From: Candidatus Gastranaerophilales bacterium
GTDB lineage: Bacteria > Cyanobacteriota > Vampirovibrionia > Gastranaerophilales > Gastranaerophilaceae
DNA: 64,000 nucleotides
Direction: 5' to 3'
Assembly (NCBI GenBank): GCA_947589425.1
Contig: CANQAV010000005.1
Span: 1-64,000, forward strand
The first letter of the stretch is position 1. Each line of letters begins with the position of its first letter. Below the pieces are notes generated by a model, which was not told the DNA's origin, made no database searches, and saw nothing but the letters and a program-made list of their open reading frames with translations. Below are positions 12,549 through 34,380 of this stretch, one piece after another. The translations under genes and the position numbers were made by a program.

Positions 12549-12731
12549 ATGGATATATTTAAAAAATTGAAAAATAAAATATCTCGAAAGAAAAAAGATA
12601 TTGTTGAAAAATACAAAAAAAATTTTGAGCTTAAAGATTATAATTTAAGTCAAGATAAAAAAGGAATAAAAATCCGAGGAAAAAGCCCTTTTGTAATGTT
12701 TGATACAAGTTTTAAGGAGGCGGAATTATAA
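12549..12731 (+). CDS. Small basic hypothetical protein before rfbB
   Basis: The 60-aa product is rich in Lys (MDIFKKLKNKISRKKK...) and ends with FVMFDTSFKEAEL. I recognise no family. TAAAAT (12537-12542) ends 6 nt before the ATG, with TTGTTT 18 nt further up, so transcription probably starts at the ATG. The reading frame ends inside the strong AAGGAGG ribosome site region of rfbB and overlaps its inferred start codon (TTATAA), which implies translational coupling. It may serve mainly as a leader or be a remnant of a longer gene. Confidence 0.45.
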   Translation: MDIFKKLKNKISRKKKDIVEKYKKNFELKDYNLSQDKKGIKIRGKSPFVMFDTSFKEAEL

Positions 12732-13932: not shown

Positions 13933-15297
13933 ATGCGTTTTAAAATCTTAAAAATGTTAAAAAGATATAAAAATCATATAATTGCACTCATTATATGCTG
14001 TATAATCGCTGCTGTTTTAACTCATATATCATATCCGGGATTTTATTTCTCGGACAGTTATTCACGAATAGGCATTGCAAAATATATTGCCGATTATAAA
14101 TTTTCGGGTATGTATCACTTGGAAGATGTATATGTTCAACTTATGCCGACATTTATTATGTCTTTTTTCTATAAATATAATATCGACATAGGCTGGTATA
14201 CAACGTTGTGCGCCGCTTCATATTTTTTCATCACATATATTTTAATAAATTATTTAAATGCGCCATACAAATGGCTTCAATATTGTTTTTTCCTTATAAA
14301 CCCCGTGCTGCTTTTTTCATCCGTTTGGGATGTTCCGGACCTTATGGGCTCTGTCGGATTGGGATTAATTTTAATATTATTGACAAAAAACAAATTCTTT
14401 AAAATTGATTACCTTCTGCTTTTCATATCATCTGTTTTGATTTTTGGCTACAGAGTAAATGCGTATGTAATTCTGCCGTTAATATTTTTCTTGATTGTAA
14501 AAAACAAAAATACCATAAAAACTGAAAAACTGTTTCAATGTTCAATAATTTCAATTGCAATAATCCTGAATCTTTTGCTTCCCATAATCTACAAAATAGA
14601 AAAAATGCCTATAGCGGTAGGAGGATTTGTGTGGGAAACATTAAATGTTATAAAACAAATTCCCGGCGATTCTTCAAAATATAATAATTATCTTGATGAT
14701 GTTATTTCAAAAAAAGGAGCAACAGAAAGAGGATTATGGGCAATCGAAAAAGATGACAGCAGTCTAAACGAATTTTTCTGGGATTACAGGGATGATTTAA
14801 CCATATTCAACCTGCAAAAAGGCGACAACACAAAAAAGGCAATGCAAAAATTCTTTAACATTGTAAAAGAAAACCCGAAAACATATACAAAAGTTAAATT
14901 ATACTATATATGCCGCATTATGGGGATTTTCAAACCTCTTGAGGTTAAAGAAATTTATTACGACAGATGGAAAAGGATGTATAAATTCCATTTTAAAGAT
15001 TCCTACGAACGACGTGTAGCATACGATTTATTTATACGAGGGGCAAATTATAATTTAATAAGATTTCCATGGGTTTTATTTTTGCTCACATTGTTTTTAT
15101 TTGTTCTGCAAAAAAAACAGCCTGACAAAAAGCTTAGTATTTTTTATATATTTGCATTTCTTTATTATGCTTCTTTCTTTATAACAACACACTCGTTTGA
15201 AATACGTTACTTTTTCCCGAGCTACTATTTGTTGTGTATTATAAATGTTTCAATGTTTTTGGAATTATTTAAACAAAACTTGCTAAAGAGAGAATAA
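13933..15297 (+). CDS. Polytopic GT-C-like membrane protein
   Basis: The 454-aa protein has about ten hydrophobic helices. After the first helix comes a loop with FSDSYSR (around residue 42), in the place where GT-C glycosyltransferases (ArnT/PMT type) keep an acidic residue. A larger non-membrane segment lies at about 240-350 and further helices follow. The likely role is transfer of a sugar from a lipid-linked donor at the membrane, which is an inference from topology and from the neighbouring dTDP-sugar genes. It converges on the DUF2997 operon. Confidence 0.5.
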   Translation: MRFKILKMLKRYKNHIIALIICCIIAAVLTHISYPGFYFSDSYSRIGIAKYIADYKFSGMYHLEDVYVQLMPTFIMSFFYKYNIDIGWYTTLCAASYFFITYILINYLNAPYKWLQYCFFLINPVLLFSSVWDVPDLMGSVGLGLILILLTKNKFFKIDYLLLFISSVLIFGYRVNAYVILPLIFFLIVKNKNTIKTEKLFQCSIISIAIILNLLLPIIYKIEKMPIAVGGFVWETLNVIKQIPGDSSKYNNYLDDVISKKGATERGLWAIEKDDSSLNEFFWDYRDDLTIFNLQKGDNTKKAMQKFFNIVKENPKTYTKVKLYYICRIMGIFKPLEVKEIYYDRWKRMYKFHFKDSYERRVAYDLFIRGANYNLIRFPWVLFLLTLFLFVLQKKQPDKKLSIFYIFAFLYYASFFITTHSFEIRYFFPSYYLLCIINVSMFLELFKQNLLKRE

Positions 15298-19291: not shown

Positions 19292-20254
19292 TTATTTCTT
19301 AATTCTTTCTTTGATTAAAGTAAATTTTCGAACAATTAAAGGGCTTGTAAAGGTTAAAAGTGTTTTTCTTTTATATAGCTTGAAATAAATTTCTTCTATA
19401 TATGGTTTAAAAAAAGGAGTCTTAATAAGATATTCATACCAAATATCAATTTTCGGGCAATAATTGTTCCATGGCTTATTTTGCTCCTGCGCATAATGCA
19501 GTTGAATAGGGCTATTAAGTGCTTCTTCGATTTCATTTCTTTCTTTTTCGTCCAAATTATCCGCATATTTTTCAAAAGAAGTATAGTCACTTACACCTAT
19601 AAGCGCATTTATGGGCATTGGTTTAATTTTAGGATAGCAAACTATATTCATAACGTCCTGTTCGGGACAAAGCAGTTTATGTGCATTTTGATATGCATAT
19701 TCAACAAATTTTTCTTCAATATTATCTTCCCTCATTTTTTTAAGATTGAAAACCATAAACCCTGCGCCAAAACACAGCTTTTTCTTTTCTTCTTCGGTAT
19801 ATTCTTCTCTTTTTCTTTTATATTTTGGGGGGTTAGTCGGATTTTTAAAATTTATTCCTTTTGATGCCGAAAAATAATAGTTTTCTTCTTTCTCAAAATC
19901 ATTATAAACGGTTGAAATATCCCCTAAAAACACAACATCAACATCAGATACCATAATTTTATCCAAAGAAGGAAAAATTGAAGAAACGAGAAATTTGTAA
20001 AACATCTCTTTTGTAAAAATCCGATTAGCATAAGTAATTTTATGCAAATCATCAAATTTATTGCTCATATTTATAAATTCAAGACTTACGTTTAAAAAAG
20101 GCTCTGTTGTTTTAAAAAGGAGCTTTTTATTTTCTTCTTTGATATCGTTTTCTAAAATGTAAATCTTATAATCGTAATCTTTATTGGCATTATAGAGCAT
20201 TGAATATATCGCAACACTGCCGGGGATGGAATAATTGTTATCAAAACAAAACAT
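19292..20254 (-). CDS. GT8-family glycosyltransferase, phase-variable, OFF
   Basis: The frame from ATG 20254 gives 320 aa of a GT8 enzyme. It has FCFDNNYSIPGSVAIYSML at the start, the metal-binding DxD in VSDVDVVFLGD (about 100-110), and LHYAQEQNKPWNN near 255. Family members begin slightly upstream (xIPVMFCFDNNY), so 20254 is probably not the real start. Upstream in the same strand an ATG at 20343 opens MENVFKSYEN..., runs into a G8 tract (20288-20281) and stops at TAA directly after it. With nine G the frame would continue into NHRRTIPVMFCFDNNY and give about 350 aa. TTGTAA (20379-20374), 17 nt and TAAGAT (20356-20351) form a promoter placing the transcript start at the 20343 ATG. Confidence 0.8.
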   Translation of the reverse strand: MFCFDNNYSIPGSVAIYSMLYNANKDYDYKIYILENDIKEENKKLLFKTTEPFLNVSLEFINMSNKFDDLHKITYANRIFTKEMFYKFLVSSIFPSLDKIMVSDVDVVFLGDISTVYNDFEKEENYYFSASKGINFKNPTNPPKYKRKREEYTEEEKKKLCFGAGFMVFNLKKMREDNIEEKFVEYAYQNAHKLLCPEQDVMNIVCYPKIKPMPINALIGVSDYTSFEKYADNLDEKERNEIEEALNSPIQLHYAQEQNKPWNNYCPKIDIWYEYLIKTPFFKPYIEEIYFKLYKRKTLLTFTSPLIVRKFTLIKERIKK

Positions 20255-20280
20255 TACGGGAATTGTTCTTCTATGGTTTA

Positions 20281-20288
20281 CCCCCCCC
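20281..20288 (-). repeat. Poly-G8 tract at the 5' end of the GT8 gene
   Basis: Eight C on the plus strand (G on the coding strand) lie between the inferred start at 20343 and the GT8 body. G7 gives CCA TAG and G8 gives GGG TAA, both stops. G9 gives an open frame into the GT8 domain. It is a candidate slipped-strand switch. Confidence 0.75.
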
Positions 20289-20395
20289 TTGATTTTTGGG
20301 ATTTTAAAACCCGATTTTCGTATGATTTAAAAACATTTTCCATAGGTTTAATCTTACAATATTAACATTTTTTTTACAACAATTTTATGGAATAT

Positions 20396-21919
20396 TTAAC
20401 GCTTTTCAACGGTTTTAAGAGTGAAAGCCAAAGGTATAACAATGAAGCCGATGAAAGCCAAAATTTCAAAAACATCAACGTATGCCATAATTTTTGACTG
20501 TACAACCAAAGATTTATATAAATATGCATTTGCTTTAATGTTTGCGCTGTAGCCTCCCGAATAAAGAGAGAATGTGTGAATAAGGGAGTTAAATCTGTTT
20601 TGAAAAGCAAGAGAATAATTTGATAAATTTCTTACAAGATAAACCTGATGCGCCTGAGAAAATATTGCAACAAGACTGTTTACAATTGAAGCGGAAGTTG
20701 CCATACATACCGTTTTACATAAGTTATGAAGACTTGCCCCGTTTGACAGCTCAATTTTGGGAAGAGTACCCAAAACCAAAGATGAAACAGGTACAAATAC
20801 AAGAATAATCCCAACCCCCATCATAATATTAGGTATTGCAATATAGCCGAAAGAAACAAGAAGATTTATGTTTTTATAAAGTATGACGGAGCACCCCAAA
20901 AGGAAAAAGCCGAGAGTAATCAATTTTCTGTTATCAAAAATTTTCATCAGAGGATTAATTAATACAATCATTATAAAAGAAGATATAATTCGAGGCGCAA
21001 GCGCCATACCGCTTAACATTGCGGTATATCCCAAAACATTCTGCATGAATTGAGGTATTAAGACAATGCTTGAAAACACAATTACGTTAACACTTGCCGA
21101 AAGTATCGTCCCCATAACGAAATTGGTATCTTTAAATATTCTTAAGTTTACAATCGGATTTTTATATTCGAGCTCCCAAACAATGAAAAATACAAATGAA
21201 ATTACGGATATTGAGCTTAAAACGCATATCCAATCACTGTCAAACCAGCGGTACTGCTGACCTTTGTCTAAAACTATCTGCATTGTTAAAAGCCATATAA
21301 CAAGAGAGGTCATCCCCAAAAAATCAATACCTTCAATCTTTTTCCTTATATCAAGCTCGGAAATATTTGCATGCACCATAGCAACCGAAATAATTCCGAC
21401 GGGAATATTAATAAGATAAATCCACTGCCAATCGGCATTATCAACAATAAAACCGCCAAAAGTAGGACCTAATATTGCAAAAATCATAACAGCCATTCCA
21501 AAAAGGCTCATTGCAATACTTCTTTTTTCATAGGGGAAAGAAGATAATAAAACGGATTGTGCAATAGGTGTCATCGGTCCTCCGCCTATCCCTTGAATTA
21601 ATCTTCCCAAAACCATTAAATTAAGGCTGTGGGAAGTAGCACAAATTAAAGAGCCTATTGTAAAAATAGAGATAAAAACTTTGAGAAAAAGTTTGCGCCC
21701 CATTAAATTTTCAAGCCAGCCCGTCATCAGAATTAAACAAGCATTTGCAATCATATAAGAAGTTATAACCCAATTTGCCTCGTCAACGGTTGAGCCGAAA
21801 TACCCCGCAATATGGGGAATTGCAACGTTTGTTGCGGAAGTTGCAAGACAAGAAAATGATGCAGGTATCAAAATCGTGAGAGCAATAAGCCAAAGAGGTT
21901 TTTTAGATATGTTTTCCAT
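20396..21919 (-). CDS. emrB: MFS drug efflux permease, DHA2/EmrB type
   Basis: The 507-aa protein is a 14-helix major facilitator of the DHA2 family. Typical motifs are NVAIPHIAGYFGSTVDEANWVITSYMIANACLI in the first helices, GWLENLMGRKLFL (motif A), GRLIQGIGGGPMTP, and the motif C region LGPTFGGFIVDNADWQWIYLINIPVGI. It works as a tripartite pump with the EmrA-like adaptor and an outer-membrane TolC. The gene follows emrA directly (positions shared at 21919) in a marR-emrA-emrB operon. The substrate is likely a hydrophobic toxic compound or bile-type molecule, by analogy only. Confidence 0.92.
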   Translation of the reverse strand: MENISKKPLWLIALTILIPASFSCLATSATNVAIPHIAGYFGSTVDEANWVITSYMIANACLILMTGWLENLMGRKLFLKVFISIFTIGSLICATSHSLNLMVLGRLIQGIGGGPMTPIAQSVLLSSFPYEKRSIAMSLFGMAVMIFAILGPTFGGFIVDNADWQWIYLINIPVGIISVAMVHANISELDIRKKIEGIDFLGMTSLVIWLLTMQIVLDKGQQYRWFDSDWICVLSSISVISFVFFIVWELEYKNPIVNLRIFKDTNFVMGTILSASVNVIVFSSIVLIPQFMQNVLGYTAMLSGMALAPRIISSFIMIVLINPLMKIFDNRKLITLGFFLLGCSVILYKNINLLVSFGYIAIPNIMMGVGIILVFVPVSSLVLGTLPKIELSNGASLHNLCKTVCMATSASIVNSLVAIFSQAHQVYLVRNLSNYSLAFQNRFNSLIHTFSLYSGGYSANIKANAYLYKSLVVQSKIMAYVDVFEILAFIGFIVIPLAFTLKTVEKR

Positions 21920-22944
21920 TATCTTACCTTAACAGTCGGAACAACGGACATCCCCGGAACTATGTTATATTTTGAAATGTCATCCGTAAAAATAATTTTA
22001 ACGGGAACTCTCTGTACAATTTTTACATAACTGCCAACGGCATTCTCCGGCGGGAAAAGACTTGCCTTTGCACCTGTTGAGCGCTGTATACTCTCTACTT
22101 CGCCGCTAAATTTTTTAGAGCCGAAGGTATCTATTTTAATTTTTACCTTCTGACCTTTTTTCATGTTTGCAATCTGTGTTTCTTTAAAGTTTGCAACCAC
22201 CCAGACTTTTTCGGGAACAATTGAAAATAAAGGCTGGGCTTTTTGAACAAAATTGCCTTCTTCAACCGTTCTGTTTGTAATTAATCCGTCTTGAGGAGCA
22301 TAAATTTTAGTATAGGAAAGATTTAGTTTATCTTCTTCAACCTTTGATTTCATTTTTTTTGAAGATGCCGAAATCTCGTCATATTTTGCCTTTGAATTTT
22401 TATAGTTCATTTGCGCTTCGACAAATTTTGTCTTGCTTGCTTCAAAATCCTGTTTTGAAGAAATTTCTTTCCGATAAAGCTTTGAATATCTTTCATAATC
22501 ATTTTTTGCAAAATCAAGCTCTGATTTTGTTTTTAAAAGCTCGTTTTTGGCTTGCTGCAACCTTGCGGTGTTTTCTTCAAAATCCGCTTTTGACTGTTCA
22601 AATTTAACCCTGTAATCATTCGGGTCAATTTCTAAAAGCAAATCTCCTTTTTTAACTTCCATATTATCGTCAATTTTTAAGTTAACAACCTGTCCGCTTA
22701 CTCTCGGCGCAATTGATACAATATGCCCCTCAACAAAAGCATCATCCGTTGATTTGTAGAAATAGTTATGAATTGAATAAAATACGGCGCTTATTAAAAA
22801 TATTATAATTGTAATAATCGGAACAAACACCCTTTTCTTCTTTAATTCGGGGCGGGTGTCAGGTTTTATTTCATTAATTTTTTCTTCTTTTTTTGAGTCT
22901 TTATCTTTTGTAGTTTTATCTTTTTTGTTGTTATCTGCTTCCAT
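21919..22944 (-). CDS. emrA: EmrA/HlyD-family membrane fusion protein
   Basis: The 341-codon frame from ATG 22944 encodes a periplasmic adaptor. It has a Lys/Glu-rich cytoplasmic start, one membrane helix (VPIITIIIFLISAVFY, about 40-58), and STDDAFVEGHIVSIAPRVSGQV. A long coiled-coil hairpin with alternating Lys and Glu follows, then a lipoyl/beta-barrel part (APQDGLITNRTVEEGNFVQKAQPLFSIVP, WVVANFKETQIANMKKGQKVKIKID). AAGGA lies 6 nt before ATG 22944; an upstream ATG at 23034 would overlap marR and lacks support. It links EmrB to the outer membrane channel. Confidence 0.9.
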   Translation of the reverse strand: MEADNNKKDKTTKDKDSKKEEKINEIKPDTRPELKKKRVFVPIITIIIFLISAVFYSIHNYFYKSTDDAFVEGHIVSIAPRVSGQVVNLKIDDNMEVKKGDLLLEIDPNDYRVKFEQSKADFEENTARLQQAKNELLKTKSELDFAKNDYERYSKLYRKEISSKQDFEASKTKFVEAQMNYKNSKAKYDEISASSKKMKSKVEEDKLNLSYTKIYAPQDGLITNRTVEEGNFVQKAQPLFSIVPEKVWVVANFKETQIANMKKGQKVKIKIDTFGSKKFSGEVESIQRSTGAKASLFPPENAVGSYVKIVQRVPVKIIFTDDISKYNIVPGMSVVPTVKVR

Positions 22945-22954
22945 AATTTTTCCT

Positions 22955-23410
22955 TTATATTTGGAGATTTGTCTTGTCCGAGAGATTGAAATATATTTTA
23001 TCGAGGGTGTTAAGGCAAATTTCAAGTTCTTCATTTTTAATGTTTTTTGTGGCGGTTTTTCTTATTTTATCTGCGGTGAACTTCATTTTTGAATATAAGT
23101 TTAAGCCTTTTTGAGTTAATTTTAATTTATATATCTGCCTTCCGTTTGAATCAATCGTAATATCAATCAGTTCTTTTTCTTTTAAAATTTTAACAATTCG
23201 GCTGATATTTGCTCTGTCTTTCAAGGTGATTTCGGATAAGCGCCTTTGATAGATTTCACTGCTGTCTGCAATCAGCGATAAAATCGCATATTGTTCCGCC
23301 GTTACATCAAAACCTTCTTCGGCAAAAGTTTGATTTGAATATGCTCTCATTAATATTGCCGTGGTAGAAAGCCTTGCTCTTATTCTTTCTTTTAAAATAC
23401 TTCTTAACAT
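22955..23410 (-). CDS. MarR-family transcriptional regulator
   Basis: The 151-aa protein has a MarR winged helix domain: FDVTAEQYAILSLIADSSEIYQRRLSEITLKDRANISRIVKILKEKELIDITIDSNGRQIYKLKLTQKG. The family usually represses its own multidrug efflux operon until a toxic ligand binds. It is the first gene of the emrAB operon, 10 nt before emrA, and is divergent from the tolC-like gene. A near-perfect 22-bp palindrome lies 20 nt upstream of its start and is the likely operator for both directions. Confidence 0.92.
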   Translation of the reverse strand: MLRSILKERIRARLSTTAILMRAYSNQTFAEEGFDVTAEQYAILSLIADSSEIYQRRLSEITLKDRANISRIVKILKEKELIDITIDSNGRQIYKLKLTQKGLNLYSKMKFTADKIRKTATKNIKNEELEICLNTLDKIYFNLSDKTNLQI

Positions 23411-23429
23411 ATTGTTTTGTTTATGTGTT

Positions 23430-23451
23430 TGTGTTGTAATTATAACACAAG
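23430..23451. promoter_or_regulatory. Probable MarR operator between marR and tolC
   Basis: TTGTGTT (23430-23436) and AACACAA (23445-23451) are perfect inverted arms, and the 11-bp half sites differ at one position. The site lies in the 64-bp divergent spacer between marR (start 23410) and the TolC-like gene (start 23475), so one regulator could control the whole tripartite pump. Confidence 0.65.
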
Positions 23452-23474
23452 AAAAATTTTCGGAAACATTTATT

Positions 23475-24857
23475 ATGAAAAAATTTTTAATCGCACTAAT
23501 TGCCCTTATTTTAACAACAAATTTCGCATATTCAAAAGACGATATTAAATCTCTTGAGCATGAACAAAATAAAATTTCTTATCTTAATATTGATTATTGG
23601 GAAAATTACGGGGATGACCTTTTAATCGAACATTTAAAAAATTTGTTTGAACAGAACTATGACTTAAAAATCGCCCAAATAAAATTAAAAGAAAACGAAA
23701 AACTTGTGAGCCTTCAGTTTGCAAATGAACTGCCTCAATTAAGTTTCGACGGCTATATCACAAGGGATTTCCGCTCATCCGTTCAAAAATTCGGCTCAAT
23801 GTCAATACCGAGCTATGCTCAAAATAATTTTCAACTTCCCTTAAGCGCAAGCTATGAAATTGACATCTGGGGCAAAAACAGGCTTAAAACAAAAAGCGCA
23901 AAACAACTTTATGAAATTGAAAAACAAAATGAAAGAACCCGCTATATCTCTCTTACCTCTGATTTTACAAGCGATTACTTTAACCTTATAAAAACGGATG
24001 AACTTTTAAAAATTCAAGATGAATTAATTGAAATTCAAAAAGAAATTGTGGAAAAAATCGAATTTAAAAATCAAACGGGTTTATGCTCAATTAACGAAGT
24101 TTTAGCCGAAAAAAAACTTCTTACAACATTTTATGAAGAAAAAAACAATCTTGAAGATAAAAAAGAGGCTCTTGAAAACGCTCTAAAATCTTATCTTGCT
24201 TTAAGAGAAGGTCATATTGAAAGAAAAAATTTCAACGATATTGAAATAAATTTTGTTCCCGAAAAATTAAACACGGATATAATTGAAAAAAGACCCGATT
24301 TTATTGCAAGCGAACTAAACCTTAAAAAATCGGGCTATGATGTAAGAATTGCAAGAAAGGAACTTTTGCCGAATTTTATAATTTTCGGTCAAATAGGCTT
24401 AAATTCATATCATTTTTCGGATTTGTTCAAATCTTCAACACAGCTTGCAAATGCGGGAATAATTCCGACTTTTGACATTTTTTCGGGCGGGCGCAAAATG
24501 GCATTTTTAAAATTAAAAAAATATCAATATGATGAAGCCTTAAACCAATATCAGAAAACAATTGTTGAAGATATCAAGGAAGTTAACAATGCTGTCTGCG
24601 AAGTTAAAACCGCAAAGAAAAATTATCTTGAAGCAAATGAAAGATATGATATTCAAAACAGAATTTTCTCTCTCGTTAAAGATAAAAAAGAAATCGGGGC
24701 TTCTTCCGGTCTTGATGTTTTATATGCAAAACAAGGAAGTCTTTTCTCAAGAAAAGAAAGTGTTTCAAATACCGTTAACTATCTTATCTCTACAATAACC
24801 CTGTATAAATCAACGGGGGGACAAAACCTGTTTGAATTAAAAGAAGAGAACTTGTAA
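23475..24857 (+). CDS. tolC: TolC-like outer membrane efflux channel
   Basis: The 460-aa protein is an outer membrane factor of the RND/NodT-TolC type. It has a signal peptide (MKKFLIALIALILTTNFAYS), paired long helices with heptad character, the strand region LSASYEIDIWGKNRLKTKSAK, and FDIFSGGRKMAFLKLKKYQYDEALNQYQKTIVEDIKEVNNA near the C-terminus. The ATG at 23475 starts the signal peptide; the 38 residues upstream lie in the operator region. It is divergent from marR-emrA-emrB and supplies their exit duct. A G6 run at 24815-24820 is in frame and not obviously a switch. Confidence 0.9.
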   Translation: MKKFLIALIALILTTNFAYSKDDIKSLEHEQNKISYLNIDYWENYGDDLLIEHLKNLFEQNYDLKIAQIKLKENEKLVSLQFANELPQLSFDGYITRDFRSSVQKFGSMSIPSYAQNNFQLPLSASYEIDIWGKNRLKTKSAKQLYEIEKQNERTRYISLTSDFTSDYFNLIKTDELLKIQDELIEIQKEIVEKIEFKNQTGLCSINEVLAEKKLLTTFYEEKNNLEDKKEALENALKSYLALREGHIERKNFNDIEINFVPEKLNTDIIEKRPDFIASELNLKKSGYDVRIARKELLPNFIIFGQIGLNSYHFSDLFKSSTQLANAGIIPTFDIFSGGRKMAFLKLKKYQYDEALNQYQKTIVEDIKEVNNAVCEVKTAKKNYLEANERYDIQNRIFSLVKDKKEIGASSGLDVLYAKQGSLFSRKESVSNTVNYLISTITLYKSTGGQNLFELKEENL

Positions 24858-24917
24858 ACCTTAAAGCAAAAAAATTTTTTTATATGCATTGTAATTATAA
24901 AAATTTAGAGCCTCGCA

Positions 24918-27902
24918 ATGTATATAACTCCCATCTCGCACAAAAACCCATATTCAAAAAGAATAAAGCACCAAAACAACCCGATTTTCAAAGGAAAGCT
25001 TGAAGACGACTATTTTAAAAGCGCCCGTGAAGAAAGATATCAATTGGAGCTTAAATATTTATGCGATAAAAATTTTGACATTTCACAAAAAGATGAACAA
25101 ACAGGCTCTAATTATCTCCATGTTGCGCTGGAGAGCAATAACACCGCTTTAATAAATCAAGCGATATTGCTTTTGGGAAAGAAAGCAAAAGAAAATCCCG
25201 AAATTGCAATTGATATTCTCTCTCAAAAAAATAATGAAGGGAAAACCCCTAAAGATTATGCTCAAAAAGATGCATTGAGGCTCATTGAAAGAGTTTTGGG
25301 GAACAACTCTCCTAAAAATTCGCAAGAAACCATGGAAGAAAAACCAAAACTTAATGAGCTCCCCAAGGGGACTGTTATTCCAATTCCCGACCTTGATGAT
25401 TTTGATGAAGAAGATTTTGATGATGAAAAAAACACTAATACTACAGATTTTCCGAGGCTTAATGAAATAGCGGGACACAAAAAAGCAAGACAAATTTTAA
25501 TTGATGAAATAGTAACTCCTTTGAACAATTTTCAACCGGTAAGAAAAAACGGTTTCTTAATACATGATAAAGAAGGACACGGAAAAAGCTTTTTATTAAA
25601 TGCATTGGCAAAATCTCTCAACAGAAATATAGAGGATATAGAAACCATAAATGCATTAACGGATAAAATATCGGATAATGAAAAAACAAGAGCAAAAGAT
25701 TTTGATACAATATTTTCAAAAAATATAATCCGGGTTTCAACCCTTGAAGGACTAAGAACGGCAATTGAACTTGCGGAAGAAAACTATAAATTAAATAACA
25801 AACAAGCAGTAATTATAATAGATGAAATCAAGGCAATTTTGCCCGATATTACCGCTCCTTATTCCCAAAATGTCATAAATGCAGAACAATTAATTGAAAA
25901 CTCGGCTCAAAAAGGTTTTATACTTGTTGCAACAACAAGGGAAAAAGACTCAATCAAACCCGAATCAATCCGCTGGGGGCGCTTTGATATTCATATTGAA
26001 TTAAAATCACCCGACGAAGAAGAAAGAAAGGAGCTTTTGCTTAAATACCTCGAAGAAGCGGTTTGCCTCAATGAAAACGAAATAAGAAAAATCTCCGAAA
26101 TGACTTCGGGCTTTAGCTATATTAATATGGCAGAATTTATAAACAACCTTAATTACAATAAAACCAAAGGTTTTGAAAATATTGAAAAAGAAATCAAAAA
26201 ATATGCAAAATCCAAAAACATGGGGGAAATTAACAAAAACGGCACAACGGCATCCTATGACACTTCGGAATTCAGAAGAGAAAACAACAAAATAACATTT
26301 AGCGATGTTGCCGGCATGGACAAAATTAAAGAAAAACTAAACAGAGAACTTGTATATAAATTTAACCCAAACAGTCTTGAATGGTTTAAAAAATTCAACA
26401 GACCCCCGCTAAGACACGGCTTTTTATTCTACGGCCCGCCCGGATGCGGTAAAACATATCTTGCAAAAGCAATTGCGGGAGAGATGAATTTACCTTTATA
26501 TATTTTAAACTCTGCCTCATTTAAAAATAAATTCGTTGGTGAGAGCGAAAGAAAACTTAAAGCAATATTTGACCAATTGAGAAACAAATTCGAACAAACA
26601 GGCGAATACAGTGTTCTTTTTATTGATGAAGCAAACGACATCTTAGGCAAAAGAGATGAAATGTCCGGTTATGACATGGGAATTGTAAATCTCTTTTTGC
26701 AATATCTTAATGATGCACCTCAAAACGGCATTATTCCGATAGTTGCAACAAACTACAAAGATAAACTTGATGAAGCGGTATTAAGCAGATTAGGCACCGA
26801 AATAAAAATTCCTCTGCCCGATGAAGCTTTAAGATTTGCTCTTATTAATCATGAATTTAACAAGGTTAACGAACTAACGAAAGATATAAGCGAAGATGAA
26901 AGAAAATATCTGGCTCAAAGGCTTGGCGGATTTAGCTCAAGAGATATAGAAAACATCTTATCGGACACAATTGATTCACTCTCGCAATATCCTGACACGG
27001 CCCTTGATATAAATGATTTTATAAAAGAAGCAAGCAGATTTTCTCTTGAACACAGGCTCCCCGAAATTAACGAACAAAATACAACATCCGGCTATGACAC
27101 CGTCATAAAAAGAGAGAAAACCGACTATCCCAAAGATTTTAGCGATGTTGCAGGTATGGAAGAAATTAAGGAAAAATTTGAAACATACCTTATAAAAAGA
27201 CTTAATCCCGAAGTTGTTGAAAGGTTTAAAAAAGACGGAATAAATTGCCCCATACAATCGAACTTCTTGTTATACGGTCCGCCCGGAAGCGGTAAAACTT
27301 TTATTGCGGAAGCTTTATCCGGAGAAATGCACATACCTCTTTATAAAATAGATGCCTCAGACATTAAAAATAAATATGTCGGAGAAAGCGAAAAACAAAT
27401 TACAAAAATATTTAATCAATTAGAAGAAAAATACAGGGAAACAGGCGAATACAGCATTCTCTTTATTGATGAAGCGAATGCCCTTTTAAACAGAAGAGAA
27501 ACCGCAAGCAACTATGAGTCGGGGCTTGTTGATTTATTTTTACAGAAGATAAATAATTCTGCCCAAAGAGGAATAATCACACTAATTGCAACCAACTTTA
27601 AAGATAAGATAGACGGCGCAATCTTAAGCAGGCTTGGAGAACAAATTCAAGTTCCCGCTCCGGATAAGTCCTTAAGACTTCAATTAATTTCAAAACTGCT
27701 TGAAAAACGTCCCTCTGCAAAAAATATCACCAAAAAACAAAAAGAAGAATTGGCGGATATTATGGCAGATTTCTCTTCAAGAGATATAACTCAGGCTCTT
27801 AATGAAATCTTAAATAACCACTTATTATATACTGATAAACCCATAACTTTTAAAGAAATCGGGAAAGGGATTGATACCTTTAGAAAAGAACACGAAATAT
27901 AA
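24918..27902 (+). CDS. Triple AAA+ ATPase with ankyrin-like N-terminus
   Basis: The 994-aa protein starts with NNPIFKGKL (about 20-28), then ankyrin-like helices (TGSNYLHVALESNNTALINQAILLL, EGKTPKDYAQKDALRLI, about 55-125). Three AAA modules follow. Module 1 is divergent: Walker A EGHGKS with K223 and Walker B AVIIIDEIKAIL, but a poor sensor region. Module 2 (GPPGCGKT, K512; SVLFIDEAND) and module 3 (GPPGSGKT, K793; SILFIDEANA) are canonical and close to each other, each with NKFVGESE/NKYVGESE pore-loop regions and ATNxKDK..SRLG. Three AAA modules in tandem are uncommon in bacteria. It is the first gene of a three-gene unit; the next ATG is 2 nt after the stop. Confidence 0.85.
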   Translation: MYITPISHKNPYSKRIKHQNNPIFKGKLEDDYFKSAREERYQLELKYLCDKNFDISQKDEQTGSNYLHVALESNNTALINQAILLLGKKAKENPEIAIDILSQKNNEGKTPKDYAQKDALRLIERVLGNNSPKNSQETMEEKPKLNELPKGTVIPIPDLDDFDEEDFDDEKNTNTTDFPRLNEIAGHKKARQILIDEIVTPLNNFQPVRKNGFLIHDKEGHGKSFLLNALAKSLNRNIEDIETINALTDKISDNEKTRAKDFDTIFSKNIIRVSTLEGLRTAIELAEENYKLNNKQAVIIIDEIKAILPDITAPYSQNVINAEQLIENSAQKGFILVATTREKDSIKPESIRWGRFDIHIELKSPDEEERKELLLKYLEEAVCLNENEIRKISEMTSGFSYINMAEFINNLNYNKTKGFENIEKEIKKYAKSKNMGEINKNGTTASYDTSEFRRENNKITFSDVAGMDKIKEKLNRELVYKFNPNSLEWFKKFNRPPLRHGFLFYGPPGCGKTYLAKAIAGEMNLPLYILNSASFKNKFVGESERKLKAIFDQLRNKFEQTGEYSVLFIDEANDILGKRDEMSGYDMGIVNLFLQYLNDAPQNGIIPIVATNYKDKLDEAVLSRLGTEIKIPLPDEALRFALINHEFNKVNELTKDISEDERKYLAQRLGGFSSRDIENILSDTIDSLSQYPDTALDINDFIKEASRFSLEHRLPEINEQNTTSGYDTVIKREKTDYPKDFSDVAGMEEIKEKFETYLIKRLNPEVVERFKKDGINCPIQSNFLLYGPPGSGKTFIAEALSGEMHIPLYKIDASDIKNKYVGESEKQITKIFNQLEEKYRETGEYSILFIDEANALLNRRETASNYESGLVDLFLQKINNSAQRGIITLIATNFKDKIDGAILSRLGEQIQVPAPDKSLRLQLISKLLEKRPSAKNITKKQKEELADIMADFSSRDITQALNEILNNHLLYTDKPITFKEIGKGIDTFRKEHEI

Positions 27903-27904
27903 AA

Positions 27905-30877
27905 ATGAAAATAAGTCCGATACAAAATTTTAATATTAAAAGTTTTCTGCCCGAAAGACATGCCTCAAACCCCATATATTTTTCGGGTCAGGATAGTTTT
28001 GAAAGCAAAATCAAAAAAAATAAAAGCCTATTAATTAAAGAAATGCAGGAGGAAATAGAAACAAAAGGCAAACTCATAATGGATTGTCCCGAAAAATTCT
28101 TAATTTTTACAAAAACTCCCTCATTATGGAATGCCGGATATATAAGTTTGGCATGCGATATTGACCTTGAAGGGGCGCAAATATCTCCTATCGGAAGCAA
28201 ACAAAAACCTTTTACGGGAGTTTTTGACGGAGCCGGTCATACCGTTAAAAATTTTAAAATCATTCAAGCACAGAAAGAAAATTCCGCCAAAAATGCTGTA
28301 TATTATGTACTAAATGACACCAAAAAGAAACCCGCAGGCTTGTTCGGCTATATAAAAGACAGTGAAATCAGAAATTTAAACATAAAAAATGCCCATATTG
28401 AAAATCAAGTGCCCGCCGGCCCCTCGGGAGGAATATCAGCGCAAGCACAGCACAGCGTTATATCCAACTGTCTGTTTGACGGCGAAATTGACGGAAGCGG
28501 TGTAACAGGCGGGATAATAGGTATCAGTGAAGAAAACAACATTGAAAGGTGCGGGGTAACGGCAAAAAGTATAACGGTTAAAAAAGAAAAAGCATATATG
28601 GATTGGGCAGGTGTAGAAGGAACGGGCGGTATAACAGGAGCGGATTTAAACAGCAAAATGTCAGAGGTGTTCTGCGAAGGCGATATTACGGGAGTATATT
28701 CAACAGGCGGTCTTATTGGCCACAGCAAAGGAACAAAAATAGAATATGCAACCTATGAAGGTCATATAGAAAACGCTACCGGAGACAACGTAGGTGCGCT
28801 GATTGGTTTTATGATTCCGCTCAATTCAAACGGATATGTTCCCAAACAATTATCCAACATCTGGTGTTTATCTAATATAGATATAGGGGTAGGGGAAGAA
28901 GATAAAAAACTTCGTTTTTCCAAAACAAGAGTATGTACTTCTCTTGCGGATTTAGATACGTTTGATGCAGGCAAAAACAGTCCCTGCTGGGTTCAAAGCA
29001 AAAATTCAATTCCCCGCCTTAAATTTTATGTTTCAAAACTTACACCCGAAAAAATATTTTTTAAAGACTATATTTCAAAAAAAGACAATTACAAAAAAAG
29101 CTGGGAGTTTGAAAAACCGCTGAAAGAAGATTTGCCTTTGAAATCACAACAATATTTAGATACTCTTGCAGCAAAATCTCCCGAAGAATTAACGGTTGAA
29201 TTTTCCCGCTATGCCAACAAATTAAGATGCAACATAAATGAATCAATGACAATCTCAAAAGAGAATTCAATACTTGAATTCTATCTTTATAAAATCATAA
29301 AAAACCCGAAAATGAATTTAACCGATATATACATGAACAGCAGCATTACTTATGATATCGGTGCAAGCGCACTATTAATGCTGGCACGTCTGGGTAAAGC
29401 ATTTCTTTTTGAAGAAGCGCTTAACAGAGATGATGTAATAGAAGTTATTGAAAAGGTAAATGCCTTCGCCAAAAATTCAATTCTTAGCATGATGCTCAAC
29501 CTCAAAATGGATTCAAGCCTTTTTGTATTTTTAAACCACCCTAAAACACAAAATTATCTTCAAAGAGCAAAAAAAGAAAGTTATATACTCAATCCGAACA
29601 GCAATTATTCCGAACTTGCCAACATCATGCTCGAAGCTTGGAATGAAACGGGAAGGGTATCAAATTTTCCCGAAGATGAAAAAAATAAAACGACGCCTCC
29701 TAAATTGGAAGAAATCTTGCAATGGGATGCAAATTTTTGTGATTGCATGGGAAACAATGTCCCTCTTATAGCTTTTGAAATTGAAGGATTAAGTGAAGCT
29801 GATATTCTATCAATAATAATCGCATCAAACAAACTGGAAGCCGATATTAACCATGCCAATAATTCAGGTGAAACTCCTTTGTCAAAAGCTCTTGAGAAAA
29901 AAATGTATTGCACTGCCTGCTATATCATAGAAAACAGCCCCGACCTTTCACCTAAAGAACAAATTGATAAACTTCCTCCGGATATGCTGTTATACCTTGC
30001 ATCTCAAAATGACAATCGTGCAGATTCCTCAATAAAATGGTATCTTGCAAAATATAAAAACAATATAAATTATCAGGACGAAAACGGAAAAACCGCCTTA
30101 ATTAATGCCGCAGAAGCAAAAAATCAAGACAGCGTATTGTTTGATATTTTGCCCTGGGGAGCAAACCCCAACATTTGCGATTCGTTTTCTCAAACCCCGC
30201 TCCATAAAGCCTGTATAAATCAGGATGAGGCTATGATTTCGCTTCTTCTCAACGAACTTGCATATCCTTTTGTAAGGGATGATTTTTCAAATCTGCCTTA
30301 TGATTATTTAAATGATGAATTAAAAGAAAAATTTAAAAACAAGTTTGAAAGCTTGAAAAAAATATATGAAAATGAAGGACTGGGAGAAATCACCCTTCCC
30401 AAAACCCATTTCGGGCCGACAAAACTGACATCGTCCGACGTAAAACAGCTTTTTGAATCAAAAGCAACAGACAAAGAAAAAAAACAGGAACAGCTTGCAA
30501 ATTTATTATGCTTTGCAATTGAAGAAACAAATAAAGCAGCTATGCAAAGCCTTGAAGAAGACGGAGATAATCTCCTTTTAAGGGCAACAAATCGCTATTG
30601 CAATTCAAAAGACAGTTACGAAAAAATAATGCTCCTGCAAGCCATCAAGCCTTTTTTAAATAAAAAATCCCGTATTAATACTGCCGACGATTTCGGTCAA
30701 ACACCTATATTTAAAGCCTGCGCAAAAGGAAGTTTGCTTCTTATAAGTTTATTAGTCCAAAACGGCGCAAGCATCAACATAGAAGATGCAATAGAAAAAC
30801 GTCCTATTTCATACGTACCCCAAGACAAAAGAAAAACCGTTGAAGAATTCTTTGAGCAATATGTAAGAAATTCTTAA
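27905..30877 (+). CDS. GLUG-repeat and ankyrin-repeat protein
   Basis: The 990-aa protein carries NPIYFSG near residues 22-28. A beta-helix built of GLUG-type repeats spans about 75-330 (KPFTGVFDGAGHTVKNF, PAGLFGYIKDSEIRNLNI, GVTGGIIGISEENNIERC, STGGLIGHSKGTKIEYATYEG). A helical middle follows, then two ankyrin blocks near 640-830 (NHANNSGETPLSKALEKK, DENGKTALINAAEAK, DSFSQTPLHKACINQDEAMISLLL) and 935-975 (DDFGQTPIFKACAKGSLLLISLLVQNGA). No signal peptide is seen, although GLUG domains are usually extracellular. It is co-transcribed with the triple-AAA protein, which also has ankyrin-like helices. Function unknown. Confidence 0.75.
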   Translation: MKISPIQNFNIKSFLPERHASNPIYFSGQDSFESKIKKNKSLLIKEMQEEIETKGKLIMDCPEKFLIFTKTPSLWNAGYISLACDIDLEGAQISPIGSKQKPFTGVFDGAGHTVKNFKIIQAQKENSAKNAVYYVLNDTKKKPAGLFGYIKDSEIRNLNIKNAHIENQVPAGPSGGISAQAQHSVISNCLFDGEIDGSGVTGGIIGISEENNIERCGVTAKSITVKKEKAYMDWAGVEGTGGITGADLNSKMSEVFCEGDITGVYSTGGLIGHSKGTKIEYATYEGHIENATGDNVGALIGFMIPLNSNGYVPKQLSNIWCLSNIDIGVGEEDKKLRFSKTRVCTSLADLDTFDAGKNSPCWVQSKNSIPRLKFYVSKLTPEKIFFKDYISKKDNYKKSWEFEKPLKEDLPLKSQQYLDTLAAKSPEELTVEFSRYANKLRCNINESMTISKENSILEFYLYKIIKNPKMNLTDIYMNSSITYDIGASALLMLARLGKAFLFEEALNRDDVIEVIEKVNAFAKNSILSMMLNLKMDSSLFVFLNHPKTQNYLQRAKKESYILNPNSNYSELANIMLEAWNETGRVSNFPEDEKNKTTPPKLEEILQWDANFCDCMGNNVPLIAFEIEGLSEADILSIIIASNKLEADINHANNSGETPLSKALEKKMYCTACYIIENSPDLSPKEQIDKLPPDMLLYLASQNDNRADSSIKWYLAKYKNNINYQDENGKTALINAAEAKNQDSVLFDILPWGANPNICDSFSQTPLHKACINQDEAMISLLLNELAYPFVRDDFSNLPYDYLNDELKEKFKNKFESLKKIYENEGLGEITLPKTHFGPTKLTSSDVKQLFESKATDKEKKQEQLANLLCFAIEETNKAAMQSLEEDGDNLLLRATNRYCNSKDSYEKIMLLQAIKPFLNKKSRINTADDFGQTPIFKACAKGSLLLISLLVQNGASINIEDAIEKRPISYVPQDKRKTVEEFFEQYVRNS

Positions 30878-30892
30878 AACAAGGAGAAAATT

Positions 30893-31831
30893 ATGATAAC
30901 ACCCGTTGCAATTAATTTTAATTCAAAAACATATTCTGCTAAATTAAAACAAAATCAAAATATATCTTTCGGCTGGTGCGAAGCCCACATTTATGCCATG
31001 AACAGAATTGATATTAAGAAAGCCGAAAAAATCAAAGAATTCAGCTCGCTTTTTAATTGGCGAAGGGTAACACAAAAAACCGAAGCGGCAAAAATAATTA
31101 ATAGTGCATCTCAAGAGGCGGCGAAAATTATGGTGCAATATGCAAATTTAATGGGAACAACAGCCGAAGTTGCGCCTTCTTATGCATTTTCAAATGCAAA
31201 AGAAACGCAGGATGCAATTGATAAAAGCGAGTTTTTAAACGACCCGGTCATTCTTTTAAATATAATACATTCAATTTCCGATATGGATGCAAAACTTGAC
31301 AATGATAATCCGATAAGAAAAGAAAGAGCAAAAGGTGCGGCACAACTGTTTTCCGTTTCCATTATGCTTGATTTAATAAAAAAGAACAGAGAAAATCCAA
31401 AATATCAACATTTTCTTGCTCAAATAGATAAAATGACCAAAATTACAGAGGATACGCTTAAGGATATATATGGCGATGATGTGTTTGATAAAATCAGATA
31501 TTTTGCATCTTTGAACGAAAAACCGTCCGATGATGATAAGAAACGTTCTCTTGAATTTCTTGTGGAGATTGATAAAAAAGCATATTCTCTTGAATTTGAT
31601 GAGTCGTTTAATTGTGAATTAAATAAATTATTAAATGAATATTTAAAAACGGGGGATGAAGATATATTATCTCAAAAACCAAAACTTAAAACAAAATTAG
31701 CATATCCGGACCACGACCACAATCCCCTTGATACCGCTAAAACACATACGCATCAAACCCATACGCACAACATGGATACGCACGATTATATGCATATTTT
31801 AGGTATTCCCCACACTCACAACAACAATTAA
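30893..31831 (+). CDS. Helical hypothetical protein with His-rich tail
   Basis: The 312-aa protein has QNISFGW near residues 22-28, matching the N-terminal motif of its two upstream neighbours. The body is helical and charged. The last 45 residues hold many histidines in alternating HTH and DHDH patterns (DHDHNP, HTHQTHTHNMDTHDYMH, HTHNNN), which should bind Zn, Ni or Cu ions. AAGGAG lies 6-7 nt before the ATG. It ends the 24.9-31.8 kb unit. No family is recognised; metal storage, metal delivery or a sensor are possible from the tail alone. Confidence 0.65.
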   Translation: MITPVAINFNSKTYSAKLKQNQNISFGWCEAHIYAMNRIDIKKAEKIKEFSSLFNWRRVTQKTEAAKIINSASQEAAKIMVQYANLMGTTAEVAPSYAFSNAKETQDAIDKSEFLNDPVILLNIIHSISDMDAKLDNDNPIRKERAKGAAQLFSVSIMLDLIKKNRENPKYQHFLAQIDKMTKITEDTLKDIYGDDVFDKIRYFASLNEKPSDDDKKRSLEFLVEIDKKAYSLEFDESFNCELNKLLNEYLKTGDEDILSQKPKLKTKLAYPDHDHNPLDTAKTHTHQTHTHNMDTHDYMHILGIPHTHNNN

Positions 31832-31856
31832 CGATTTTGTTTCTTTGATATATAAT
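31828..31856 (+). promoter_or_regulatory. Promoter of the first poly-G paralog
   Basis: TTAACG (31828-31833), 17 nt and TATAAT (31851-31856) precede the gene at 31880, which also has AAGAGGAAATT as ribosome site. The second paralog has a TATAAT at 33117-33122 but no clear -35. Confidence 0.45.
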
Positions 31857-31879
31857 TAATTTATATACAAGAGGAAATT

Positions 31880-32815
31880 ATGGAAAAAAAGCTTATACTA
31901 ATCGGCTCGGGCGCATATTTTACGGATAGCTTTATTTATTTTGCAAAAAAAGGCTTTAAAGTAAAAGTTATAAAAACGGGTAAGACAACAAAGTGGTTTA
32001 TGTCCAATTATCAAATATATCAAGATTTAAACTTTGAAATTATTGATGCGGACTATGAAAACAAAGATTTTATAAAAAGCTTGGATATCAATAAAAACAC
32101 TATCGTAATCGGGGGCGGAGGCTACTTTGGAGATTTGGAAAACTATCCCGAAGGAAGAAAAAGTGCTCATAATGACCTTTGGGTTTTAAAAGAAATTGCG
32201 AATTATAATAAACAAAATAATTTGGGGGCTTTAACCGTAAGATATTTTAACGGGGATACGGGTTTCGGTACAAAAATGGAAGCGGAGCTTTTTGAAGAAA
32301 GCCTTAAAAATGTTGATTTATTGATTTTTGATAATGACAATTTAAGGGATTTTGTAATTTATAATGCTCCTTCCCTGAAAAATAAAAAATATATTTATGC
32401 ATGGTTTGAAACACCATTAAAACAATTCGTTTACCATAATGAAAACAAGGAATATAAAAAACAATTTATCTCGTTTGGAAGAAACATCTGTTCAACAGAA
32501 ATAAATTATCCTTCAAAAGCAATGTTTTATCCCTATCCATATAATAAATTTAAAGGAATTAAAAGAATAACAGAAAGATTTTACCACAAAAAAATTCAGC
32601 ACTTAAAAAGCATTTATTATATTGCGGGAATGTCAAATTATAAACAAATCCTCTCAGACAGAAAAGAAGTTTTTGAAAAGCTGTCAAAAATTACCTTTGG
32701 TTTATCGCATTTTTATGATATTTTTCAAAATTCCGTTGAAGAATTTTTGAAAAATAAAGAGTTTTATTTCTCTCTAACCGCTCAAAATTCATCTAATAAA
32801 GAGGGGGGGGGGTAG
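31880..32815 (+). CDS. Glycosyltransferase-like paralog 1, N-terminal part (phase OFF)
   Basis: The frame gives 311 aa starting with a Rossmann-like LILIGSGAYFTDSFIYFAKKGFKVKVIKTGK and containing GALTVRYFNGDTGFGTKMEAE and FDNDNLRDFV. It ends at ...SSNKEGGG followed by TAG, immediately after a G10 tract. The missing C-terminal part continues in another frame to 33095. Removing one G joins them into a 404-aa protein. The overall plan resembles a GT-B glycosyltransferase, but no specific family is recognised. It is 1.3 kb from a close paralog with the same break. Confidence 0.6.
   Translation: MEKKLILIGSGAYFTDSFIYFAKKGFKVKVIKTGKTTKWFMSNYQIYQDLNFEIIDADYENKDFIKSLDINKNTIVIGGGGYFGDLENYPEGRKSAHNDLWVLKEIANYNKQNNLGALTVRYFNGDTGFGTKMEAELFEESLKNVDLLIFDNDNLRDFVIYNAPSLKNKKYIYAWFETPLKQFVYHNENKEYKKQFISFGRNICSTEINYPSKAMFYPYPYNKFKGIKRITERFYHKKIQHLKSIYYIAGMSNYKQILSDRKEVFEKLSKITFGLSHFYDIFQNSVEEFLKNKEFYFSLTAQNSSNKEGGG
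32195..32355 (+). repeat. 161-bp block identical in both paralogs (copy 1)
   Basis: By eye this block matches 33458-33618 base for base, encoding NYNKQNNLGALTVRYFNG through NDNLRDFV, while sequence on both sides differs. It marks recent gene conversion or recombination between the tandem paralogs. Confidence 0.85.
32803..32812 (+). repeat. Poly-G10 tract in paralog 1
   Basis: Ten G follow AAAGA and lead to TAG. The downstream coding frame is reached with nine (or twelve) G: GAG GGG GGG GGT AGG AAT then reads EGGGRNLYYGFCNNPSKD. It is a candidate phase-variation tract, OFF in this assembly. Confidence 0.85.
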
Positions 32816-33095
32816 GAATTTATACTACGGATTTTGCAATAACCCCTCAAAAGATGTTTGCTATTTGATGTATGGAATTATTCCCCTTGTTCCCCATAAT
32901 ATCCACAGTATTTACAAAACTTTGGCGGATAAAAAAATGGCAATCGTAATTAAAGATAAGTCCGATTTTAAAAGATTGCTAAAGATGAGTGATGATGAAA
33001 TACAGGAATATAGGGATAATATTTATAATAATTCCGATTTATTTACCTTTGATAAAACAGGAGATATGTTAATCAAAGAGCTTGAAAAAAATTAA
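32814..33095 (+). CDS. Glycosyltransferase-like paralog 1, C-terminal part (out of frame)
   Basis: After the poly-G tract the other frame reads RNLYYGFCNNPSKDVCYLMYGIIPLVPHN and runs to a stop at 33095, ending NNSDLFTFDKTGDMLIKELEKN. It has the look of a GT-B C-terminal domain (GIIPLVP, then KDKSDFKRLLKMSDDEIQEYRDN). The first internal ATG is at 32862-32865 but has no ribosome site. The segment is strongly conserved with the matching part of paralog 2 (34084-34380), so it is under selection as protein. It should be translated only when the tract is in the ON length. Confidence 0.65.
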   Translation, partial: RNLYYGFCNNPSKDVCYLMYGIIPLVPHNIHSIYKTLADKKMAIVIKDKSDFKRLLKMSDDEIQEYRDNIYNNSDLFTFDKTGDMLIKELEKN

Positions 33096-33148
33096 ATACC
33101 CTTCCAATCTTTATTGTATAATTTTTTTGTACAACAAAAGGATGCAAA

Positions 33149-34129
33149 ATGAAAAAAAATCTTATACTAATCGGCTCGGGTTGTTGGTTTATTGACAGTT
33201 TTTCATATTTTATCGAAAAAGGTTTTAAAATGACTGTCATAAAAGTTGAAAAAACAGCATCTTTTTTTGCTCCAAATTACGAAATATTAAATGCTTTAGG
33301 TGCAAAGATTATTGAAGCTGAATATAACAGCGATTTTATTAAAAGTTTAAACATAAATCAAAATACAATTATAATTGGCGGCGGTTATTATTCCGGCGAT
33401 TCCCCCAATTTTAACGGAAGCTTTGTTTCTCATAATGAATTATGGCTTATGAAAAATATTGCGAATTATAATAAACAAAATAATTTGGGGGCTTTAACCG
33501 TAAGATATTTTAACGGGGATACGGGTTTCGGTACAAAAATGGAAGCGGAGCTTTTTGAAGAAAGCCTTAAAAATGTTGATTTATTGATTTTTGATAATGA
33601 CAATTTAAGGGATTTTGTTGTTACAAATGCTCCCAAATTAAAAGACAAAAAATATTTTTACGGCTGGATTGAAACCCCGTTAAAAAAATATGTAAATCAT
33701 AATTTAACAAAAAAATATTTTAGAGAATTTATCTCTTTCGGAAGAGTTATCTGTTCTGATAAAAATATGAAATATCCCGTAAAAACAGCGTTTTATCCCT
33801 ATCCGTATAATCAGTACAGGGGAATAAAAAGAATAATAAAAAGATTTTATCATAAAAAAATACGACATCTAAAAAGCGGTTACTACATTGCAGGATGCGC
33901 AAATTTGGCACAAATCCTTTCTGACAGAAAAGAGGCTTTTCAAAAACTGTCCGATTACGCCTTTGGTTTATCGCATTTTTATGATATTTTTCAGGGCTCA
34001 ATTGAAAAATTTACGAAAAACAAAGACTTTTATTTTTCACTTTTCGGACAAAATTCAACTATTAAAGAGGGGGGGGTAAGGGTATGTCTGCCTATTACGC
34101 CTTTTGCAATAACCCCTCAAAAGATGTAA
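33149..34129 (+). CDS. Glycosyltransferase-like paralog 2, N-terminal part (phase OFF)
   Basis: This is the tandem paralog of the 31880 gene, starting NLILIGSGCWFIDSFSYFIEKGFKMTVIK with AAAGGATG as ribosome site. The reading frame passes a G8 tract, goes out of phase and ends 18 codons later (VRVCLPITPFAITPQKM). In the correct frame the sequence continues as AYYAFCNNPSKDVTYLMNGIIPL. With nine G the product would be 410 aa. It shares a 161-bp identical block with paralog 1. Confidence 0.6.
   Translation: MKKNLILIGSGCWFIDSFSYFIEKGFKMTVIKVEKTASFFAPNYEILNALGAKIIEAEYNSDFIKSLNINQNTIIIGGGYYSGDSPNFNGSFVSHNELWLMKNIANYNKQNNLGALTVRYFNGDTGFGTKMEAELFEESLKNVDLLIFDNDNLRDFVVTNAPKLKDKKYFYGWIETPLKKYVNHNLTKKYFREFISFGRVICSDKNMKYPVKTAFYPYPYNQYRGIKRIIKRFYHKKIRHLKSGYYIAGCANLAQILSDRKEAFQKLSDYAFGLSHFYDIFQGSIEKFTKNKDFYFSLFGQNSTIKEGGVRVCLPITPFAITPQKM
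33458..33618 (+). repeat. 161-bp block identical in both paralogs (copy 2)
   Basis: This is the second copy of the identical block described at 32195-32355. A further nearly identical stretch covers the 3' ends (CTAAAGATGAGTGATGATGA... at about 32979 and 34239). Confidence 0.85.
34069..34076 (+). repeat. Poly-G8 tract in paralog 2
   Basis: Eight G follow AAAGA and lead to TAAGGG. Adding one G gives GAG GGG GGG GGT AAG GGT ATG, which joins the N-terminal frame to the conserved C-terminal domain. The ON length, nine, is the same as that deduced for paralog 1. Confidence 0.85.
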
Positions 34130-34380
34130 CATATTTGATGAACGGGATTATACCTTTAATTTCTCACAATTTACATAATGTATATAAAAGCATGACAGAT
34201 AAAAAAATGGCAATTTTAATTAAAGATAAGTCCGATTTTAGAAAATTACTAAAGATGAGTGATGATGAAATACAGGAATATAGGGATAATATTTATAATA
34301 ATTCGGATTTATTTACCTTTGACAGAACCGCTCAAAGAATAATTGAAGAATTTGAAATTTCAAAACGGTTAAACAAATAA
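34084..34380 (+). CDS. Glycosyltransferase-like paralog 2, C-terminal part (out of frame)
   Basis: The 98-aa frame opens at an ATG (SAYYAFCNNPSKD) just after the G8 tract and overlaps the end of the out-of-phase N-terminal frame. It matches the C-terminal part of paralog 1 closely: GIIPLISHNLHNVYKSM, MSDDEIQEYRDN, NNSDLFTFD. It could be translated alone from 34084, but without a ribosome site a functional protein is more likely only from the G9 joined frame. The last residues (ISKRLNK) are specific to this copy. Confidence 0.65.
   Translation: MSAYYAFCNNPSKDVTYLMNGIIPLISHNLHNVYKSMTDKKMAILIKDKSDFRKLLKMSDDEIQEYRDNIYNNSDLFTFDRTAQRIIEEFEISKRLNK

Follow-up and report, generated by a model that had tools for sequence, protein, structure and literature searches.

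Poly-G phase variation is textbook knowledge for a few host-associated bacterial lineages. The accepted mechanism of such loci is slipped-strand mispairing at a G run; in Campylobacter, the targets of poly-G switching include surface glycans. Phasevarions, in which DNA methyltransferases are phase-variable, are known from Haemophilus, Neisseria and Helicobacter. In the Campylobacter phasome, as determined with PhasomeIt (PMC6321876), tracts of 9 G made up 53% and tracts of 10 G 26% of the total; 77% of the tracts were located within ORFs, and the number of genes ranged from 5 to 81 per strain. For Helicobacter canadensis, 29 tract genes were reported (PMC2823697), in eight of which a tract placed towards the 3' end altered the C-terminus and did not switch the gene OFF.

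Here, three poly-G tracts of a Gastranaerophilales bacterium were analysed, which are situated in a 64-kb stretch of DNA (the window, i.e. the whole stretch at its full length). The tracts are very probably contingency loci that switch their genes ON and OFF at random, cell by cell, and that belong to a genome-wide set. The data comprise one consensus assembly and one genome per species. The system is of a known kind in a lineage with no earlier description found: the search for phase variation in Melainabacteria or Gastranaerophilales among open-licence papers gave no result.

Similarly to the Campylobacter phasome, the tracts are mostly G8–G11 with a peak near G9, are mostly located inside ORFs and occur in a similar number per genome. 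In contrast to Campylobacter, MutS1 is present in the lineage, the tracts of the genome have a strong 5'-GA flank, and genomes of the family contain up to 179 tracts of at least eight G. The lineage itself is also different, as the PDB entries closest to its RpoB are 8syi, 8gzg and 8h3v, which we take to be cyanobacterial polymerases.

Results

Tracts of the window and their reading frames

The features of the window are presented in Table 1. The positions, lengths and strands of the tracts were exactly those given in a preliminary description of the window. Apart from these three, no G/C run of at least 7 bases was present in the window, the GC content of which is 33%. According to Markov models of order 1–3 of the window, 0.3–0.5 G/C runs of at least 8 bases are expected per 64 kb, and three were observed. 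Taken alone, the window is only mildly unusual in this respect, which does not hold for the genome.

Table 1. Poly-G tracts of the window and the genes that contain them.
Feature	Position	Strand	Remarks
Poly-G tract G8 (C8 on plus)	20281..20288	-	G9 joins 18+328 codons into 350 aa; G8 and G7 fail
GT8 glycosyltransferase gene, tract near 5' end, out of frame as assembled	19292..20343	-	Pfam match
Poly-G tract G10	32803..32812	+	G9 joins 307+93 codons into 404 aa
First tandem paralog, orphan family, out of frame as assembled	31880..33095	+	Open frame 31880-32815
Poly-G tract G8, site homologous to 32803-32812	34069..34076	+	G9 joins 306+100 codons into 410 aa
Second tandem paralog, out of frame as assembled	33149..34380	+	Open frame 33149-34129; downstream frame ends 34380

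When the tract lengths were altered in silico, nine G joined the two frames at all three tracts; as described earlier, the frames stayed separate both at the present length and after the closest change in the other direction. The assembled lengths resulted in truncated frames in all three genes. The downstream frames had been assigned to a conserved glycosyltransferase, which was confirmed for the gene at 19292-20343, whereas no family match was obtained for the pair at 31880-34380. The joined frame of the former gene matched Pfam Glyco_transf_8 (PF01501) over residues 30-294 with an E-value of 1.2e-31, and the score of 110.6 bits against the cut-off of 24.3 places it among the GT8 enzymes. 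The start codon of the GT8 gene is the ATG at 20343. An internal ATG at 20254 is in frame about ten codons beyond the tract and, therefore, the OFF state of this gene is maybe not a full null.

The tandem paralogs of the pair share 70% identity. The dN/dS values determined for the G9-joined frames were 0.27 before the tract (305 codons) and 0.18 after it (93 codons), indicating that both halves are under purifying selection. The pair had no match in Pfam, NCBIfam, PHROGs or the PDB sequences, no homologue among 238 other genomes of the bacterial family and no relative in a pattern-seeded scan of 84,980 species with one genome per species. Due to this absence of relatives elsewhere, the intact state of the pair is unseen. 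For the first paralog, the structure predicted for the part before the tract had a low pLDDT of 53 and only Rossmann-like fold matches, and the glycosyltransferase label of the pair is plausible but unproven.

In the genes of the pair, the tract is located three quarters along the sequence, which resembles the situation in H. canadensis, as do the 7 of 36 tracts of the genome that lie near 3' ends. In contrast to H. canadensis, the 3' part of the pair is a conserved region of 93-100 aa, so that switching would resemble the removal of a domain more than the exchange of one tail for another. In H. canadensis the variation was shown in reads, whereas the tracts described here come from a consensus assembly.

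The genome-wide set of tracts

The genome (1,873,483 bases or 1.87 Mb, 32 contigs, 99.8% complete) was searched for G/C runs of at least 8 bases, as the preliminary description had proposed, and 36 were found; the number of G7 runs genome-wide was 6. Run lengths were analysed in the surroundings of all 36 tracts, in pieces of at most 20 kb with a total of 331 kb. The counts of short runs decreased steeply, with 3071 of G3, 675 of G4, 118 of G5, 15 of G6 and 0 of G7, while the long runs comprised 13 of G8, 16 of G9, 5 of G10 and 2 of G11. The empty G7 class between the decaying background and the second peak is the clearest sign of a separate, maintained class of tracts. The tracts exceed the genome background by this bimodal length distribution and by the existence of genus mates without any such run.

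Well inside a joinable frame lay 17 of the 36 tracts, while 7 were near the 5' end and 7 near the 3' end of a gene and 5 had no clear gene; for tracts close to the end of a gene or read as poly-C, the frame classing was mechanical and some of these assignments are possibly wrong. Homopolymeric G/C tracts of at least 7–8 bases in a coding region or promoter are characteristic of poly-G contingency loci, and the genome has such tracts. Approximately 12 of the 36 tracts lie close to the 3' end of a gene or have no clear gene, which counts against a switch.

The inside-frame and 5'-end groups together contained 24 tract genes, 8 of which were ON and 16 OFF as assembled. This is near the one third of ON genes expected with a freely drifting length. 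The earlier statement that all three window genes are OFF is correct for the assembly and fits this ratio, but a coordinated state is not required, as random lengths suffice. The proposal of one shared ON length, G9, was not upheld outside the window: the ON length modulo 3 was 0, 2 and 1 in 10, 9 and 5 of the 24 genes, respectively, and all three phase classes occur. Since the phases vary genome-wide and two of the three window genes are paralogs, their agreement on G9 is attributed to chance.

Functions of the tract genes

The joined frames matched the glycosyltransferase families GT8, GT90, GT9 and GT2-like, together with a polysialyltransferase-like family. Other matches were to FkbM methyltransferase, SDRs (short-chain dehydrogenases), an AlgX-like acetyltransferase, an FrhB-like protein, a TPP enzyme, DUF4422 and polysaccharide deacetylase. 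Judged by these family matches, the tracts appear to be mostly in surface-glycan and other envelope genes. A location upstream of a prepilin-like gene was also observed. No phase-variable DNA methyltransferase was found among the examined tract genes of this genome.

Several tracts had a distinct arrangement. Two identical 1142-aa genes, presumably autotransporter-like by our reading of the sequence, form a tandem in which a G11 run immediately precedes the ATG of either gene (L015:8853-8863 and 12627-12637), and these runs may tune the start of translation. Two G8 tracts (L011:13817-13824 and 13951-13958) are located within a 134-bp direct repeat adjoining a gene that we likewise read as flagellin; a further tract, G9, precedes the start of the flagellin gene by 230 bp. 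A C8 on the coding strand (L014:6808-6815) is situated in the HAD-phosphatase part, with the DRDGV motif, of what is probably a fused nucleotidyltransferase/phosphatase of heptose synthesis.

Stop codons and tract lengths in homologous genes

The placement of stop codons was determined for 58 tract genes of six genomes, with control codons taken from the same genes. In 69% of the tract genes, one of the two OFF frames met a stop directly behind the tract, compared with 19% at the control codons, and the distances to the OFF-frame stops were both shorter than those of the control in 5000 of 5000 resamplings.

The lengths of homologous tracts were unequal: G10/G8 in the window pair, G8/G9 in the GT90 pair, and G10/G8 and G9/G8 in GT8 pairs. 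In the relative G132, two proteins with 92% identity had G9 and G10, respectively. These length differences were determined for paralogs; the single close cross-species tract pair compared had G9 in both species. In silico, a length change by a single unit toggled the frame of a conserved gene. No named relatives of the GT90 pair were found in a scan of genome contigs.

The FrhB-like gene has G10 in this genome, while its homologues at 29 loci of other genomes had no G run at this site, mostly having one or two glycines with mixed codons, e.g. GGC GGT. The FrhB-like genes of other species were intact, and that of one relative had its own G8 at a different place in the gene. Therefore, the tracts arose independently at different sites of homologous genes. 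Differing sites were observed also in the polysialyltransferase-like and FkbM groups.

Sequence flanking the tracts

After removal of duplicates, A preceded 28 of 29 tracts of the genome and GA 20 of 29, while GA was found before 6% of G4-G6 runs. The 5'-GA occurred in all three codon phases, also on tracts that the gene reads as poly-C, and it is therefore not a protein-level constraint. GA may mark the birth of tracts or may affect slippage. In G184 and G145, most tracts were preceded by C, which may derive from common ancestry of the prepilin genes, and in G132 the preceding base was mixed. After the tract, the T and A fit selection for stop codons. An extended downstream motif was considered as a site-specific element and rejected, as stop codons of the OFF frames account for most of it in this genome.

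Tracts in related genomes

Among 28 genomes of the genus, 13 had no G/C run of at least 8 bases, 10 had one to five and five had 15 to 39. The counts ranged from 0 to 179 in the wider family and were at most 15 in other families of the order. The G7 gap was repeated in relatives, with 121 runs of at least 8 and one of G7 in G145, and 179 and one, respectively, in G070. In the phylum at large, the counts of G9 or longer, taken irrespective of GC content, varied, and many of these genomes are larger.

The search for mismatch repair proteins resulted in MutS1 scores of 505 to 598 bits for the eight genus genomes tested, with a cut-off of 641.7; most members of the order exceeded 900 bits. None of the same eight genomes, tract-rich or tract-free, gave a match for MutL. 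The loss of mismatch repair as the driver of the tracts, as in mismatch-repair-deficient lineages of the Campylobacter/Helicobacter type, was rejected, as the tract-free members of the genus share the absence of MutL and the diverged MutS1. The tract-rich G070, G184 and G041 possess both MutS and MutL. The presence of MutS1 in the genus and its many tract-free members count against a switch.

Some other genera appear to use their tracts on a different target. At the sampled loci, tracts lay at most 100 codons before a prepilin N-terminal motif in 9 of 19 cases in G145, 6 of 8 in G041, 5 of 7 in G184, 6 of 6 in G028 and 2 of 7 in G070; the control was 7 of 235 random positions of the same loci. 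Two prepilin-like examples scored near the Pfam N_methyl cut-off. Prepilin-like genes (FTLAEVLITLGIIGVVAA) had many G9-G14 tracts in their leader or a short distance before it, at L128-L156 in G041, G184, G070 and G028 and at L088-L101 in G145. Such genomes, with up to 179 tracts, would have a large phase-variable prepilin-like repertoire.

Tracts of the relative G026 were found in two DNA methyltransferases, N6/N4 and C5 (L068:2199, L068:3981 and L068:9426). In this they are similar to phasevarions, and their location suggests a phasevarion-like regulator in this relative.

Discussion

For the probable contingency loci, we infer that slipped-strand mispairing at replication adds or removes a single G per tract in living cells. 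One length in three keeps both parts of a gene in frame, and the others would meet a stop just past the tract. The cells of a clone would then flip each gene ON and OFF independently and reversibly, and the population would show mixed surface structures. With the genome-wide tracts, their frames and gene families, the stops, the selection and the paralog lengths, the stochastic poly-G switch of surface glycans suggested in the preliminary description is strongly supported.

Among the other explanations, slippage of transcription or of the ribosome survived best, although it is improbable. The DNA length would be fixed, a minority of in-frame product would be made and the tract would be a dosage device. 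Long G runs could in general permit such slippage, and the quick stops after the tract fit it as well. However, close paralogs differ in the length of the DNA itself (G9/G10 at 92% identity, and the G8/G9 and G10/G8 pairs), and one third of the tract genes are already in frame.

It is still less probable that the genes are pseudogenes or assembly errors, with frames broken by decay or by homopolymer miscalls. Homopolymers are error-prone, and the assembly has 16 of the 24 genes out of frame, but the tract is the sole lesion in these genes and a changed length restores the long frame. Both halves of the window pair show the dN/dS of selected sequence, the 13 genus mates without such runs are assemblies too, and length miscalls would not produce tracts at sites that lack them in relatives. 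Chance is a negligible explanation of the G runs, although the Markov models allow a few tenths of a run per 64 kb: the counts do not decay monotonically from G3 to G11, as the G7 class is empty and the counts peak again at G8-G9, and the runs are concentrated in surface genes, have a strong flank bias and number zero in 13 genus mates.

If the tracts are contingency loci, their density, equal to or greater than that of the known systems, in an unrelated lineage suggests an independent origin of the strategy. Surface genes would then be misreported as broken in the consensus assemblies of these bacteria. The genus, in which five genomes are tract-rich and 13 have none, is a natural experiment, and the differing tract sites in homologous genes open the origin of contingency loci to direct tests.

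A broader proposal, tentative and rather unlikely at present, is that poly-G contingency is the main surface-diversifying device of the whole family, a group of non-photosynthetic relatives of Cyanobacteria, with a repertoire for each lineage (glycan genes in this genome, large prepilin-like sets in other genera) and with tracts born or kept in a lineage-specific context, which in this genome is the GA preceding the tract in any reading frame. If true, the lineage-specific GA context would point to an undescribed sequence-dependent process of tract formation or slippage.

Composite runs were also noted in two relatives. Eight or nine A's (or T's) with G8-G9 immediately behind them occurred mostly outside clear genes at L068-L087 in G026 and at L109-L113 in G024, and these composite tracts are perhaps a different class.
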